The notes beneath the pieces were generated by a model that was not told where the DNA came from, did not search any database, and saw only the letters and a program-made list of their open reading frames with translations. From contig CACXMZ010000009.1 of the NCBI GenBank assembly GCA_902768975.1, positions 1 through 64,000 on the forward strand: a DNA stretch of 64,000 nt. Direction: 5' to 3'. Origin of the DNA: an uncultured Coriobacteriaceae bacterium (GTDB lineage Bacteria > Actinomycetota > Coriobacteriia > Coriobacteriales > Eggerthellaceae). Below, in pieces: positions 35,684-48,956 of this stretch (the first letter of the stretch is position 1; the number at the start of each line of letters is the position of its first letter). Made by a program: the position numbers and the translations under genes.

Positions 35684-36373
35684 ATGAAAGTTATTTTGCT
35701 CCAAGAACTGAAGGGCAAGGGCATCGAAGGTGATGTCGTAGATGTGTCCAGCGGTTATGCCAACAACTACTTGCTGCCGAACAACCTTGCCGTGCGCGCC
35801 ACGGAAGGTCAGCTCAAGCAGCTTGAACAGCGCCGCCACAATATTGCCAAGCGCGAAGAAGAGCGCATGGCTGCGGCAAACGAACTGAAGGAAAAGATGG
35901 ACGGCTTGTCCGTGAAAATCGAAGCACGCGTGGGCGAAGAAGGCCAGCTCTTCGGTTCGGTTACCACTCAGCAGATTGCTGCTGCCCTGCTTGAACAGCA
36001 TGGTATTGAAGTGGACAAGAAGCTTATCGACCTGAAGGCCGCCATCAAGACGGCGGGCGAACATGGCGCTGTGGTTTCGCTGCACCGCGACATCAAGAGC
36101 GAAATCAAGCTCGTCGTGGGCGACCCTGAAGCCATCGCTGCTGCCGAAGCCGCTGCCGCTGCTGCTGCCGCCGAAGAAGCTGCTGCTAAGGCTGCCGCTG
36201 CTGAAGCAGAAGCCGCTGCCGCCGCCGCTGCTGAAGCTGCCGAAGCCGAAGAAGTGGCCGAAGAAGCTGAAGCAACGGAAGAAGCTGCTGAAGAAGCTGC
36301 TGAAGCAACCGAAGAGGCTGCCGAAGCTACTGAAGAAGCTGAAGAAGCTGCTGCGGAAGGCGAAGAAGCCTAA
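35684..36373 (+). CDS. rplI: 50S ribosomal protein L9 with long Ala/Glu tail
   Basis: Residues 1 to about 148 are a normal L9: M-K-V-I-L-L-Q-E-L-K-G-K-G, G-Y-A-N-N-Y-L-L-P, and the C-terminal domain ending near V-V-G-D-P-E. A further 80 residues are made almost entirely of Ala and Glu, first Ala-rich, then E-E-A-A-E blocks. L9 is usually about 150 residues, so the tail is extra. It lies in frame with normal codon use and before the operon terminator, so it is part of the gene. Confidence 0.95.
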   Translation: MKVILLQELKGKGIEGDVVDVSSGYANNYLLPNNLAVRATEGQLKQLEQRRHNIAKREEERMAAANELKEKMDGLSVKIEARVGEEGQLFGSVTTQQIAAALLEQHGIEVDKKLIDLKAAIKTAGEHGAVVSLHRDIKSEIKLVVGDPEAIAAAEAAAAAAAAEEAAAKAAAAEAEAAAAAAAEAAEAEEVAEEAEATEEAAEEAAEATEEAAEATEEAEEAAAEGEEA

Positions 36374-44158: not shown

Positions 44159-45484
44159 GTGCAGCACTCCTTGTTAAGAGAACGCGCCCTTTCAAAAGTT
44201 GTTGCCACCTTAGGCGACAAAATCCTGCGGCTCAGTCCCGTAAAACAAAAGTCGTTTCCCGTTCCCGACTTGGGGCGGAAATATATGCTGTACGCCCATG
44301 TGCCCTTTTGCGAGCGCTTGTGCCCGTATTGCAGTTTTAATCGATTTCCCCATGCTGAAGATCGGGCCATTCCGTATTTCGAAAACCTGCGTGAAGAAAT
44401 GCGCATGCTTGCGCGCGCGGGTTACGACTTTCATTCTTTATATATTGGTGGGGGCACGCCTACCATTATGGTGGACCAGTTGTGCGAAACCATCGACCTG
44501 GCCCGTGAATTGTTTTCGCTTGAAGACGTTTCTACGGAAACAAACCCGAACCACCTTATTCCTGAAATTTTGGAACCCCTTTCGGGCCGCATTCAGCGCT
44601 TGAGCGTGGGCGTGCAAAGTTCCAACAACGCACTGCTTAAGGCCATGGACCGCTATGAAAAGTACGGTTCAGCCGAAGAAGTTTTTGAGCGCATTCAACA
44701 TGTGGCTCAGTACCCCTTTACCTTTAACGTGGACATGATTTTCAACTTCCCTGCGCAAACGGAAGACATGCTCATTGAAGACCTTGCCTTTGTTATAGAA
44801 AGCGGCTGCAACCAGACGACTTTCTACCCACTCATGGCTTCACCTTCGGTGGAACAGAAGCTGGCGGAAACCGTGGGGCAGGTGGACTATGTACGCGAAC
44901 GGCATTATTACGACATCATCTGTCGTTCGCTCATCGAGGCGGGTTTTGATTTTTCAAGTGCCTGGACTTTCAACCGCAGCACGGGTGGTGCCATGGTGGA
45001 CGAATACGTGGTCAAGGCCGAAGAATATCCCGCCATTGGTAGCGGCGGCATTTCGTATTTGGGCGGCAATCTGTACGTGAATACTTTCTCCTTGCGCGAA
45101 TATAATGCAGCCGTAGCTGCGGGCACGCAGGCACTCATGGGGCAGGTGCGTTTGCCCAAGCGCGGACAAATGCGTTACCGCTTTCTTATGCAGCTCTTTG
45201 GCTTGCGCCTAGACAAGAAACAATTCAAGGCGGACTTTGGCGTGAGCGTGGAAGCGGGCCTGCCTATAGAAATGGCATTCATGCGCGCCAATGGAGCCTT
45301 CGCCACCGACAACGAATTCGAACTCACGCTCACACCAGCAGGGCGCTACCTGACGGTGGTTATGATGCGCCAGTTCTTTATTTCGGTTAACACCTTACGC
45401 GACCAGGCCCGTGCGGCTCTTCCTGAAGAAGAACGCGACCTCATTTTTGGGGAAGGCGTCATGGGTCTTCCCGTGTGTCACTAA
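44159..45484 (+). CDS. HemN/HemW-like radical SAM protein
   Basis: The 4Fe-4S motif C-E-R-L-C-P-Y-C-S-F near residues 51-60 follows Y-A-H-V-P-F, exactly the HemN/HemW pattern with a further aromatic; I-G-G-G-T-P-T and V-G-V-Q-S come later. Candidate roles are oxygen-independent coproporphyrinogen oxidase, haem chaperone HemW or a haem-degrading ChuW/HutW-type enzyme. The S-F-N-R-F continuation after the cluster motif and the 441-residue length are closer to the latter group in my view, but this is not decisive. Downstream cytochromes (bd, NapB) need haem. GTG start; the ribosome-binding site is too close to be ideal. Confidence 0.8.
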   Translation: MQHSLLRERALSKVVATLGDKILRLSPVKQKSFPVPDLGRKYMLYAHVPFCERLCPYCSFNRFPHAEDRAIPYFENLREEMRMLARAGYDFHSLYIGGGTPTIMVDQLCETIDLARELFSLEDVSTETNPNHLIPEILEPLSGRIQRLSVGVQSSNNALLKAMDRYEKYGSAEEVFERIQHVAQYPFTFNVDMIFNFPAQTEDMLIEDLAFVIESGCNQTTFYPLMASPSVEQKLAETVGQVDYVRERHYYDIICRSLIEAGFDFSSAWTFNRSTGGAMVDEYVVKAEEYPAIGSGGISYLGGNLYVNTFSLREYNAAVAAGTQALMGQVRLPKRGQMRYRFLMQLFGLRLDKKQFKADFGVSVEAGLPIEMAFMRANGAFATDNEFELTLTPAGRYLTVVMMRQFFISVNTLRDQARAALPEEERDLIFGEGVMGLPVCH

Positions 45485-45545: not shown

Positions 45546-45605
45546 TTGACGAACTGTTTTTTAAATGCTACTATTGCGGTAGCAATTGATACTAAATAAG
45601 TATCA
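45546..45605 (+). promoter_or_regulatory. cydA promoter with two inverted-repeat operators
   Basis: -35 TTGACG (45546-45551), 17-bp spacer, -10 TACTAT (45569-45574). TGCTAC-7-GTAGCA (45566-45584) overlaps the -10. Just after the start site comes TGATACTAAATAAGTATCA (45587-45605), a perfect 7-bp inverted repeat with 5-bp centre, typical of a dimeric repressor site. Confidence 0.7.
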
Positions 45606-45664
45606 TTTATGGATTTGGTATGGGGTTGTAACCCCAGGGAGAAGAAAAGGAAGGGGATGAGGGC

Positions 45665-47104
45665 ATGGATGTAGAGATTCTGGCACGTTTGCAATTCGCA
45701 TTTACGGCAGCGTACCACTTCTTGTTCGTTCCGACCAATGTTGGTCTGGGCCTTATAGTCGCACTCATGCAGACGCGCTACTATAAGACTCGCAAGCCCG
45801 AAGACCTGGCAGTGGCAAAATGGTGGGTGAAGTTCTTTACTATCACCTTCGCCATGGGTGTTGCTACCGGTATTACGATGGAGTTTAGTTTTGGTACCAA
45901 CTGGGCCAACTACGCTCGTTTCGTAGGTGACATCTTCGGTGCACCGCTGGCCGCCGAAGCCCTGCTTGCATTCTTTATGGAGTCCACGTTCCTGGGCGTT
46001 TTGCTGCTTGGTCGTGGCAAGGTAAGCGAAAAATTCATGACAGCTGCTGCCTGGCTCGTGTGGGCCGGTTCAACCTTCAGCTGCCTGTGGATCCTTATCG
46101 CTAACTCCTGGATGCAGACGCCGGGTGGTTATGCAATCGAAGGCGGCAAGGCAGTCCTGACTGACTTTTTTGGCGCAGCGTTCAACCCGTCGACGTTAGC
46201 TCGCTTCACCCACACGGTGGACGCTATCATCATCATGGGTTCGTTCCTCGCTATTGCCATTGGTGCTTACAACCTGCGCAACAAGAAGAACGAATACTTT
46301 GGCAAGCGCCAGATTCAGGTTGGCACTATAGTGGCCCTGGTTGCTGTTATTCTCATGCTTCCGTTCTCGCACATGCAGGCAACGGTTGTCGCGGACGAAC
46401 AGCCCGAAAAGCTGGCTGCTATGGAAGGCCAGTATGAAGACGGCCCGGCAGACCTGTATCTGTTCGGCTGGGTCGACGAAGCCAACCAGACGGTCAATGG
46501 TATTAAGCTCATGGACGGCGGCACTTCGCTGCTGGCTTGGGGCGACCCCACTAAGGAAACCATTGGTCTGAACACCGCTTCGAAGAATATTGAACAGCGC
46601 ATCGCTGAAGTCCGTTCGGGCGAATACCTGCGCAACGGCGAACAGTTCTATCAGACGGTCGGTTCCAACGAAGAATCTTACGCACCTGCCACCACGGCTC
46701 CCGTGCAGATCACCTTCCAGAGCTACCACCTGATGGTTGCCCTGTACGGCTGCATCGTACTGTGGCTTATCTTTGCCTTTATCGTGCGCGGCAAGATTAA
46801 CAAGGGCCAAGAAGCTTCCAGCGGCTTGCTGAAGGCGCTCTACTTTGCCCCCTTGTTCCCCATTCTTGCTATCGAAGCTGGTTGGTTTGTTGCCGAATTC
46901 GGTCGCCAGCCCTGGATCGTATGGAACGAACTGCTCATGGTAGACGCCATTTCGCCTGCCGTTGACGCTCCGCAGCTTATCATCACCATGGTTCTGTTCC
47001 TGGCGGTGTATGCTCTGCTGCTGTTCATCCTGTTCAAGAATGCCTTCCGCATTATCAAGGAAGGTCCGGAACAGGTAGAAGTTATTGAAGGGGAGGTGGC
47101 CTAG
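45665..47104 (+). CDS. cydA: Cytochrome bd quinol oxidase subunit I
   Basis: Membrane oxidase that reduces oxygen with quinol electrons at very low O2. Starts with R-L-Q-F-A-F-T-A-A-Y-H-F-L-F, which has the haem b595 His, and carries G-R-Q-P-W near residue 413. 479 residues with nine or so helices; the Q-loop is of the short kind, as in most Gram-positives. Three haems expected. Starts at ATG 45665. Confidence 0.96.
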   Translation: MDVEILARLQFAFTAAYHFLFVPTNVGLGLIVALMQTRYYKTRKPEDLAVAKWWVKFFTITFAMGVATGITMEFSFGTNWANYARFVGDIFGAPLAAEALLAFFMESTFLGVLLLGRGKVSEKFMTAAAWLVWAGSTFSCLWILIANSWMQTPGGYAIEGGKAVLTDFFGAAFNPSTLARFTHTVDAIIIMGSFLAIAIGAYNLRNKKNEYFGKRQIQVGTIVALVAVILMLPFSHMQATVVADEQPEKLAAMEGQYEDGPADLYLFGWVDEANQTVNGIKLMDGGTSLLAWGDPTKETIGLNTASKNIEQRIAEVRSGEYLRNGEQFYQTVGSNEESYAPATTAPVQITFQSYHLMVALYGCIVLWLIFAFIVRGKINKGQEASSGLLKALYFAPLFPILAIEAGWFVAEFGRQPWIVWNELLMVDAISPAVDAPQLIITMVLFLAVYALLLFILFKNAFRIIKEGPEQVEVIEGEVA

Positions 47105-47105
47105 C

Positions 47106-48173
47106 ATGTTGACCTTGTGGAATGTTATTTGGTTTATCCTCATCTTCGTCGTTATTACTGGCTACTTTATTCTTGACGGTTTCGACCTGGGCGTGGGTGC
47201 GTTGTACCCCTTCCTGGGTAAGGACGAAGTCAAGAAAGCCACCCTGCGTCGCGCCATTGGCCCGACCTGGGACGGCAACGAAGTGTGGCTGCTCACTGGT
47301 GGCGGCGCGCTGTTCGCAGCATTCGCACCTGCCTATGCAACCACCTTCTCGGGCTATTACATTGCCATTATGTTGGTGCTGTTCTGCCTCATCGTGCGCG
47401 CCGTTTCCCTTGAAACCCGCGGGCACGACCCCGAGCGCGCCAAGTTCTGGGACGCACTGTTCTTCCTGGGCAGCGCGCTTCCGGCACTACTCTTTGGCGT
47501 GGCGGTGGGCGACACCATGATGGGTATCCCCATGGACGCTCAGGGCAACATGGCCTTGGCGTTCCCCATTAGCTTTGTGTTCCTGCTTCGCCCCTTTGCT
47601 CTGCTGTGCGGCCTGGTTGGCCTCATGCAGTTCCTCCTCTTGGGCGCATGCTGGATCGCCGTTAAGACTGAAGGTGAACTGCACGACAAGGCCGCGGCGC
47701 TTCGCCCGAAGTTCGCTCTGGCCGAAATCGTTCTGTTCGTGCTGGCAAGCATCCTTTGGTTTATTGGCATGGGTATCGACCCGCAGGCTGGCCCCATGGG
47801 CGCCGTATTTGGCATCGCTGCTACGCCTTCGCTGACCATCGTGTCTGCCATCTTTGCCGTAGTTGCCTTGGCTGGCATGGCTCTGACCTTCCTGTGGGCT
47901 ACCAAGGGCGAAGCCGACCTGAAGGTCTTTATCGTGGCTGCGGTTATTTGCCTGGGCCTGTGCTTCACGGCTGCCTTCGGCATGTTCCCGAATTGGGTAC
48001 CCGACAGCCTCATGGCTAACCCGGTAACGGTTGCCGAAGCTGCTTCCGAAGACTTCACGCTTATTTGGATGTTTGGCATTACCATCGTTGGTCTGCCCAT
48101 CCTGCTGTTCTATCACTTCCTGTGCTATCGCGCCTTTGCTGGCAAGATTACGGAAGCTGACTTGGAATACTAG
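47106..48173 (+). CDS. cydB: Cytochrome bd quinol oxidase subunit II
   Basis: Partner of CydA; 355 residues, eight to nine helices. F-I-L-D-G-F-D-L-G-V-G near residues 19-29 and G-P-T-W-D-G-N-E-V-W are the family marks. ATG 47106 lies 1 bp after the cydA stop with GGGGAGG upstream. No cydCD genes are in the window. Confidence 0.95.
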   Translation: MLTLWNVIWFILIFVVITGYFILDGFDLGVGALYPFLGKDEVKKATLRRAIGPTWDGNEVWLLTGGGALFAAFAPAYATTFSGYYIAIMLVLFCLIVRAVSLETRGHDPERAKFWDALFFLGSALPALLFGVAVGDTMMGIPMDAQGNMALAFPISFVFLLRPFALLCGLVGLMQFLLLGACWIAVKTEGELHDKAAALRPKFALAEIVLFVLASILWFIGMGIDPQAGPMGAVFGIAATPSLTIVSAIFAVVALAGMALTFLWATKGEADLKVFIVAAVICLGLCFTAAFGMFPNWVPDSLMANPVTVAEAASEDFTLIWMFGITIVGLPILLFYHFLCYRAFAGKITEADLEY

Positions 48174-48225
48174 GCATCCTATAACTACGCGGTGCTTTTA
48201 ACCCCTGTCGCCGCCGTAGTACCGA

Positions 48226-48257
48226 GACCCTGCTACAGTCCCGTAGCAGGGTCTTTT
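48226..48257 (+). terminator. Intrinsic terminator after cydB
   Basis: GACCCTGCTAC (48226-48236) pairs perfectly with GTAGCAGGGTC (48243-48253), followed by TTTT. Confidence 0.88.
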
Positions 48258-48287
48258 CCGTGTTACCAAGTTGTAAAGTGAATGCTC

Positions 48288-48333
48288 TTGAAAATAGTAA
48301 GTATGCTTATTAAAATACTAAGCAATCTTACTA
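48288..48333 (+). promoter_or_regulatory. Promoter and operator of the MarR gene
   Basis: -35 TTGAAA (48288-48293), 17-bp spacer, -10 TAAAAT (48311-48316). AGTAT (48300-48304) and ATACT (48315-48319) form an inverted repeat over the -10, nested in TAGTAAG (48295-48301) and CTTACTA (48327-48333). The AGTAT/ATACT core also occurs in the cydA operator. Confidence 0.6.
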
Positions 48334-48350: not shown

Positions 48351-48956
48351 ATGACTATTGCAAATGAAGATCTGTTAATGGAAATGCAACGAGTGGGTTC
48401 CTTGATGCGTCGTGCCCGCCACCGCAAGATGCACGAGCACTTCATGAAAAAGGTCGCCCAGATGGCTGAAGCTGCTCCCGAAGGCGCGCCGGAAGGTATG
48501 CCGCCCATGCCGCCCTTTGGCGGGCCGCATGGCGGTCCCCACGGTGGGCGTTGTGGGCACGGCCCGCATGGCCATGGTCATGGCCACGGCAAATGTCGCA
48601 AGGGCCACGGCAAATTTGGGCAAGCGCGTATTCTGGCCTTGCTTCAAGTACAAGACGGTATGAGCCAGAAGGATTTGGCCTTCCTGTTGGGCATTCGCCC
48701 GCAGTCGCTCACGATTGCGCTTGAAAAGCTCGAAACAGAAGGGCTTATCGAACGCAAGCAGGACGAAGATGACAAGCGCACGCGCCGTGTCTTCATTACC
48801 GAAGCAGGTAAGGCCAAGGCTAACGAAGCAGCGGAGGAACGCGCCGCCCGAGCAGATGAAGTTTTCGCAGTATTGAGCGACGAAGAAAAGGACCAGCTTG
48901 GCGCCATCCTTTCTAAGCTGGCAGCCAGCATGGAAGAACAGCAGCACACTGAATAG
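48351..48956 (+). CDS. MarR-family regulator with His/Gly/Cys-rich insert
   Basis: The winged helix is clear: M-S-Q-K-D-L-A-F-L-L-G-I-R-P-Q-S-L then L-E-K-L-E-T-E-G-L-I-E-R and D-D-K-R-T-R-R. Between the N-terminal helix and the DNA-binding domain (about residues 57-89) lies a stretch with eight His and two Cys among Gly and Pro (H-G-G-R-C-G-H-G-P-H-G-H-G-H-G-H-G-K-C). This looks like a metal or haem binding site and is not in ordinary MarR. 201 residues. It sits after cydAB behind a terminator and its own autoregulatory-looking promoter. Likely roles: control of itself and of cydAB. Confidence 0.88.
   Translation: MTIANEDLLMEMQRVGSLMRRARHRKMHEHFMKKVAQMAEAAPEGAPEGMPPMPPFGGPHGGPHGGRCGHGPHGHGHGHGKCRKGHGKFGQARILALLQVQDGMSQKDLAFLLGIRPQSLTIALEKLETEGLIERKQDEDDKRTRRVFITEAGKAKANEAAEERAARADEVFAVLSDEEKDQLGAILSKLAASMEEQQHTE

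Follow-up and report, generated by a model that had tools for sequence, protein, structure and literature searches.

The cytochrome bd oxidase genes cydAB of an uncultured Coriobacteriaceae bacterium (family Eggerthellaceae) are preceded by a pair of palindromic operators that probably belong to an oxygen-defence regulon under an Rrf2-family repressor that has three conserved cysteines; the MarR-type regulator encoded next to cydAB would be a separate self-regulator that may respond to metal. The locus lies in a 64-kb window (the whole stretch of 64,000 nucleotides analysed here, from contig CACXMZ010000009.1 of assembly GCA_902768975.1), and positions are those of this window. The genome itself (1.89 Mb) is designated G000, and the genomes and loci considered carry G and L numbers respectively. 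The first-pass annotation, made from the DNA sequence alone, had suggested that the MarR protein controls cydAB.

The operator pair upstream of cydA

Two consecutive inverted repeats precede cydA (Table 1), as the first-pass annotation had noted, and the second is indeed the perfect TGATACT/AGTATCA palindrome that it described. Operator 1 reads TGCTACT-N5-GGTAGCA, with a single mismatch between its arms, and operator 2 reads TGATACT-N5-AGTATCA, with perfect arms. A lone perfect repeat of this 7-5-7 layout is common, with five in the window. Tandem 7-5-7 pairs, with like arms 20–22 bp apart, are found at two places in the window, compared with a total of one over 20 block-shuffled copies. The other such pair (36313–36352, 21 bp apart) lies within a GAAGCTGCTGAAG-type low-complexity stretch and appears to be a coding repeat rather than an operator. 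Within the 1.89-Mb genome, the pattern TGMTACY-N5-RGTAKCA matches at exactly two places, both at cydA, and the broader TGHTACY-N5-RGTADCA adds no further exact match in this genome.

In two other genomes of the same genus (G001 and G004), the TTGACG hexamer, its spacing and the two palindromes are found at the same places before cydA. Judged by the distance from TTGAC, the left operator arm lies over the -10 hexamer in six promoters, those of cydA in G000, G001 and G004 and those of a sufC-like gene in G032, G069 and G102. The cydA operator pair is real.

Distribution of the cyd-type operator in the family

We searched 99 of the 138 genomes of the family for exact matches to TGHTACY-N5-RGTADCA and found 40 sites in 27 genomes. 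Since the reversed control pattern gave 41 sites in the same 99 genomes, the number of sites is uninformative by itself, and only their places are telling. Thirty-two of the 40 sites lie from -20 to 260 bp before the starts of genes of eight classes: cydA (12 sites), desulfoferrodoxin (5), cydD (4), ahpC and sufC-like genes (3 each), trxA (1) and two small genes, coding for an HCTCCGKHCP protein and an NRDD-like protein (2 each). The remaining eight (in L093, L097, L098, L100, L101, L114, L115 and L120) are not linked to such genes. For cydA, cydD, the sufC-like gene, desulfoferrodoxin and ahpC, sites were seen in at least two genera each. Examples of CydD, AhpC, thioredoxin and thioredoxin reductase scored above their NCBIfam cut-offs, and desulfoferrodoxin above that of Pfam; the product of the gene that follows the sufC-like one is weakly SufD-like (27.4 bits, cut-off 222).

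The cydA promoters themselves were compared in 30 loci, obtained from the 42 genomes with a cydA match. The motif was present with at most one mismatch in 11 of them (shuffle mean 0.01) and with two mismatches allowed in 17 (shuffle mean 0.28). Because the places of the sites fall before genes of oxygen defence, the cydA sites look like operators of an oxygen/oxidative-stress defence regulon across this Eggerthellaceae-like family. The predicted regulon comprises cydAB, cydDC, the sufC-like operon, desulfoferrodoxin/superoxide reductase, ahpC and trxA-trxB.

The two small genes were seen in two genomes each. In L117 and L119 (G115 and G025), a small basic protein with PHCTCCGKHCPLTKPRCGKGRK starts 38 bp after a cyd-type operator, and the L119 copy, which was scanned, had no Pfam match. 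In L091 and L092 (G012 and G081), a short gene whose product matches anaerobic ribonucleotide reductase at the C terminus of the latter starts 59 bp after such an operator.

A candidate repressor of the Rrf2 family

The cydA sites can be written as TGNTA-N9-TANCA, a 19-bp palindrome with the 5-9-5 layout of Rrf2 operators. The genome encodes three Rrf2 proteins. The candidate among them, at G000:C5:93894-94418, belongs to an apparent operon made up of a gene for a protein of 498 amino acids (aa), the Rrf2 gene and a mutY-like gene. Its product exceeds the cut-off of the Rrf2 superfamily model (TIGR00738, 87.5 bits, cut-off 73.3) but not that of the IscR model (TIGR02010, 58.4 bits compared with 207.55); it also falls below the cut-offs for NsrR, RirA, CymR and the SUF regulator of the Xanthomonas type. 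Three cysteines (Cys 91, 98 and 104) are invariant in all eight aligned members of its subfamily and are possible ligands of an iron–sulphur (Fe–S) cluster. A second Rrf2 gene (L158:2985-3401, in G000:C7) codes for a protein that lacks the three cysteines and lies divergently beside cysteine desulfurase-like and mnmA-like genes, as judged from its neighbours by eye.

The presence of the candidate subfamily is sharply bimodal: 53 of the 99 genomes have a match at E <= 1.2e-56 and the next match is at 2.4e-27. Of the 27 genomes that carry exact sites, 24 have the subfamily, versus 29 of the 72 without (Fisher p 9e-6); counted by genus, it is in 11 of 11 with gene-linked sites versus 15 of 37 others (p 3e-4). 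No such link was seen for the reversed control pattern (13 of 28 versus 40 of 71, p 0.87). The genome lists for these tests were transcribed by hand from the search results. In G018 the sole Rrf2 match belongs to the candidate subfamily, and this genome has sites at ahpC and desulfoferrodoxin and near-exact ones at cydA.

The Rrf2 gene is usually found directly 3' of a gene for a protein of ~500 aa, which is uncharacterised in G000:C5 (L337:2098-3594) and is a possible partner of the regulator; this place is kept in most of 37 loci. As the Rrf2 gene directly follows the ~500-aa gene, the promoter of the operon should lie ~1.5 kb upstream. Close to the regulator gene itself, no site with up to two mismatches was found beside any of the three Rrf2 genes of G000, and 30 other Rrf2 loci yielded two weak cyd-type matches, both far from the gene. 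Before the operon, six of 37 genomes had a site with up to two mismatches in 310-bp windows that span the start of the partner gene, with one mismatch in G001 and G016 and with two in G018, G027, G085 and G090; shuffling gave a mean of 0.34 and a maximum of 2. Six of all seven such sites in the Rrf2 loci fall inside these windows, which cover 7.7% of the sequence (binomial p 1e-6). The 37 loci are those left of 39, as the G023 locus was too short and that of G005 gave no partner.

The regulon could also be real and its repressor a protein of some other family, such as HxlR, LysR or another MarR, or an Rrf2 paralogue, for instance the IscR-like one at G000:C1:53298. The Rrf2 candidate owes its choice only to the layout of the operator, to co-occurrence and to weak sites upstream of its own operon, the genome has three Rrf2 genes, and the half-sites also suit the T-N11-A layout of LysR operators. 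LysR proteins, however, mostly activate from upstream, and the overlap of the sites with the -10 hexamer argues for a repressor. HxlR was rejected, having a match in 34 of 60 relatives and none in the other 26, which include the site-bearing G012; upstream of HxlR there was no match at 12 or more of 14 positions that could be attributed to the gene. To our knowledge, the Rex box does not resemble the cydA sites. A paralogue is difficult to reconcile with G018, where the single Rrf2 match coexists with sites at ahpC, desulfoferrodoxin and cydA, and the sites before the candidate operon in six genomes likewise speak for the candidate itself. We therefore regard another repressor as unlikely, if still a serious competitor to the three-cysteine Rrf2 protein.

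Several observations weigh against a regulon under Rrf2 control. The total of exact sites does not exceed that of the reversed control, and every gene class but cydA was named after inspection of the sites. The sufC-like proteins score 135.8 and 128.4 bits against an NCBIfam SufC cut-off of 212.8, although SufC is still their best family. Thirteen of the 30 cydA promoters have no site even at two mismatches; five of these genomes have the Rrf2 subfamily (G006, G016, G026, G028 and G034), four do not (G010, G022, G029 and G033), and the other four were outside the Rrf2 search. Exact sites in G000 are confined to cydA, and among its weaker sites, none of those inspected (all three with one mismatch and 8 of the 31 with two) lies before a regulon gene. 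The candidate Rrf2 gene is not beside Fe–S or cyd genes in this genome, and the place before its operon holds, as in G004, only a sequence with three mismatches (TGATACCCAAAGCATGTCA). Three such sites were already known when the windows before the operon were chosen, and the six genomes represent four genera. The arms of the cydA sites (TGATA, TGCTA or TGTTA) match no Rrf2 operator with which we compared them, neither TGTAA of SifR and HypR nor GAC of RisR. Two genomes with gene-linked sites, G112 and G116 (84% and 85% complete), lack the Rrf2 subfamily, as does G071, whose site is unlinked. Finally, co-occurrence can follow lineage, and the regulators covered by the co-occurrence tests were the Rrf2 subfamily and this MarR. 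Because of the lineage effect, the limited set of regulators and the two linked-site genomes without the gene (~85% complete), we put the identification of Rrf2 as the regulator of the cydA operators at only a little better than an even chance.

The MarR protein and its own promoter

The regulator encoded downstream of cydB is a MarR-family protein by its winged-helix domain and by fold matches to MexR, MarR and SlyA. The stretch of eight histidines and two cysteines to which the first-pass annotation drew attention is there, in the 36 residues from 56 to 91 (the whole protein has 12 His and 2 Cys). This His/Cys-rich linker (approximately residues 45–86), between helix 1 and the winged helix, is disordered in the AlphaFold2 model, with a predicted local distance difference test (pLDDT) score below 50. 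Since 14 of 14 aligned relatives have 6–16 His and 2–4 Cys ahead of the winged helix, it is plausible that the protein senses metal through this linker. The zinc-sensing MarR proteins AdcR and ZitR share the fold (ZitR is among the PDB fold matches), but the protein scores far below the cut-off of the NCBIfam AdcR model (NF038251, 30.2 bits, cut-off 175), its His/Cys stretch lies in a disordered linker, and its operator differs from the AdcR box. The haem-sensing PefR, which controls haem efflux, also has the MarR fold (PDB 7dvu is among the matches), whereas for the protein described here an excess of sites is seen solely at its own promoter. Distant relatives (L261–L269) were seen in Glycomyces, Actinomyces, Cellulomonas, Propionibacterium, Rothia and an Oscillospiraceae genome.

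The marR promoters of relatives carry a tandem operator, ANTMAG-N4-CTKANT, of which two or three copies are frequent, and in G000 the copies flank the -10 hexamer. Of the 19 genomes with this MarR subfamily, 17 were searched, and 15 of them had an exact match within ~125 bp upstream of marR; the upstream regions in G140 and G023 had none. Counted by promoter, 13 of 15 carried an exact site (shuffle mean 0.03), the 15 being the 19 loci less four with no detected start. The 17 genomes hold 53 exact sites, 26 at marR and 27 elsewhere. The latter are not in excess of the 30 that the reversed control pattern gave, so that MarR appears to regulate mainly itself. Further targets were rejected on the same grounds; of five off-marR sites inspected in other genomes, the best, before the threonine synthase gene of G029, was isolated. 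Self-regulation of MarR via its own tandem operator is strongly supported.

The model of the first-pass annotation, in which the His/Cys-rich MarR protein represses both cydAB and its own gene via a shared core and ties the oxidase to metal or haem, has in its favour that the genes adjoin in G000 and G004, that the linker His and Cys are conserved in all 14 aligned members and that haem-binding PefR and zinc-binding ZitR are among the fold matches. The AGTAT/ATACT repeat on which the shared core was based does exist, as AGTAT-N10-ATACT at 48300, but it is ordinary, perfect 5-bp repeats with this spacing numbering 98 in the window. The arms at cydA read ATACT and then AGTAT with five bases between them, and those at marR read AGTAT and then ATACT with ten. 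As order and spacing differ, and the operator that relatives conserve at marR is another sequence, the claim of a common core fails. The cyd motif was found in none of 15 marR promoters with up to one mismatch and in one (G140) at two; the marR motif, with up to one mismatch, was in none of 30 cydA promoters. G025 and G088 hold both systems, and their MarR operators (AATCAGGTACCTGATT and ATTAAGGTTCCTGACT) are unlike the cyd-type operator.

Nor do the two systems travel together. Among the 24 genomes with an operator before a regulon gene, 20 have no MarR orthologue (E <= 1e-57), and at a looser cut-off (E <= 1e-20) 13 still have no match, so that relatives keep the operator in the absence of the supposed repressor of cydAB, which contradicts that role of MarR; at the latter cut-off, 12 of the 27 genomes with cyd-type sites have some match. 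MarR orthologues (E <= 1e-57; 11 of 99 genomes) show no link with cyd-type sites, being present in 4 of 27 genomes with them and 7 of 72 without (p 0.35). Among 19 Coriobacteriia loci of this MarR from named records, several of them cut by contig ends, cydAB is near it in one (L242, Red_deer_4_mag_2) and the gene contexts of the rest are many. That locus, in which MarR adjoins cydAB, is from the same genus and apparently on the same contig as in G004, and we rejected a linkage of MarR to cydAB, which is confined to this genus. The absence of MarR from G001 is weak evidence and may be an assembly gap, because the contig ends 157 bp after cydB. A strong hairpin also separates cydB from marR. Of the proposed repression of both promoters, self-regulation stands, albeit through a different operator, and the model as a whole is very improbable.

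An equally slim chance attaches to the view that the repeats are by-products of the promoter (extended -10 TGNTACTAT) with no regulator: the left arm does form a TG-extended -10 in several promoters, but the right arm, which falls outside those hexamers that make up the promoter, is equally constrained, G000, G001 and G004 have a further complete palindrome past the -10, and sites with at most one mismatch at cydA promoters far exceed the shuffle mean (11 of 30 compared with 0.01).

The cydAB–marR locus

By their profile matches, cydA and cydB encode plain cytochrome bd subunits (Table 1). The likely terminator hairpin that follows cydB, which is absent from the list of the terminator scan, would make marR a transcription unit of its own.

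Table 1. Genes, promoters and operators of the cydAB–marR locus
Feature	Position	Strand	Description
cydA promoter	45546..45574	+	-35 TTGACG, 17-bp spacer, TG-extended -10 TACTAT within operator 1; 9/12 consensus matches
cyd operator 1	45566..45584	.	TGCTACTATTGCGGTAGCA; overlaps cydA -10; site at matching place in G001, G004
cyd operator 2	45587..45605	.	TGATACTAAATAAGTATCA; fully palindromic; 21 bp from operator 1
cydA	45665..47104	+	cytochrome bd oxidase subunit I; Pfam PF01654, E 4.9e-134
cydB	47106..48173	+	cytochrome bd oxidase subunit II; TIGR00203 over cut-off; Pfam PF02322
Likely cydAB terminator	48224..48255	+	hairpin then TTTT; fold -24 kcal/mol, z -6.9
marR promoter	48288..48316	+	-35 TTGAAA, 17-bp spacer, -10 TAAAAT; 10/12 consensus matches
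marR operator 1	48296..48311	.	AGTAAGTATGCTTATT; within promoter spacer
marR operator 2	48317..48332	.	ACTAAGCAATCTTACT; directly 3' of -10; 21 bp from operator 1
marR	48351..48956	+	MarR-family regulator, 201 aa; Pfam PF01047, 51.7 bits, cut-off 24.6

Directly 5' of cydA lies a radical SAM gene of a coproporphyrinogen-oxidase-like family (44159–45484; NF006385 over cut-off) that is related to ChuW/HutW and HemW. The same neighbour is present in the relatives' loci L102, L103, L105, L106 and L107, and its product is a possible haem-related partner of the bd oxidase. In G039, a gene for a ModE-type molybdate regulator-like protein (L108:9164-9511, judged by eye) is found 3' of cydAB on the opposite strand.

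Proposed mechanism and known Rrf2 systems

In the mechanism that we propose, a dimer of the holo form of the Rrf2 protein would sit on each palindrome, over the -10 hexamer and the transcript start, and block RNA polymerase when oxygen is absent. Oxygen or superoxide would destroy the presumed Fe–S cluster and free the operators, turning on cydAB and the defence genes. The MarR protein would act apart from this circuit and damp its own promoter, its His/Cys linker being a possible metal sensor. The sequences themselves show the two types of operator with the genes that they target, the operator of MarR at its own promoter, the co-occurrence and the sites before some Rrf2 operons; binding by Rrf2, its Fe–S cluster, the signal, the direction of control and a response of MarR to metal are what we infer from them.

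In its layout, the cydA site resembles the operators of the Gram-positive Rrf2 repressors SifR, HypR and SaiR, which are 19-bp near-palindromes with 5-9-5 arms; the canonical operator of SifR and HypR is TGTAA-N9-TTACA (PMC9218516). These regulators likewise have a role in redox stress, with trxB as a potential target, but the arm bases are others and SifR reacts with quinones via Cys102 (PMC9218516). The candidate, unlike SifR, has three invariant cysteines in a possible Fe–S arrangement and a predicted regulon that includes bd oxidase and superoxide reductase. In Myxococcus xanthus, RisR is described as a [4Fe-4S] Rrf2 repressor of isc and suf with the core GAC-N7-GTC; the AC-N7-GT spacing of the core, the overlap with promoter hexamers and the suf target are shared, and the differences are the GAC-N7-GTC core itself and the control of Fe–S assembly genes, the available part of that report making no mention of cydAB, ahpC or superoxide reductase (PMC9973013). 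Our literature search found no report of this oxygen-defence regulon or of this MarR protein, nor any on oxygen sensing and induction of bd oxidase in anaerobic gut Actinobacteria of the Eggerthella group.

Implications for the oxygen response of Coriobacteriia

These results move attention from the neighbouring MarR protein to an Rrf2 gene elsewhere in the genome, and the operator consensus together with a named candidate repressor makes the oxygen-control hypothesis directly testable. More broadly, we tentatively suggest, with a chance that we put just short of even, that these gut Coriobacteriia sense oxygen mainly through a previously undescribed Rrf2 subfamily, an Fe–S repressor that acts through TGNTA-N9-TANCA over the -10 hexamer. 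If so, it would jointly control bd oxidase, the CydDC exporter, the SufC-like operon for Fe–S assembly, superoxide reductase, AhpC and thioredoxin as well as its own operon, and would fill the role that PerR, OxyR, Rex or FNR have elsewhere. Individual lineages would then keep differing subsets of the regulon, with the genus represented by the window keeping the doubled site at cydA.

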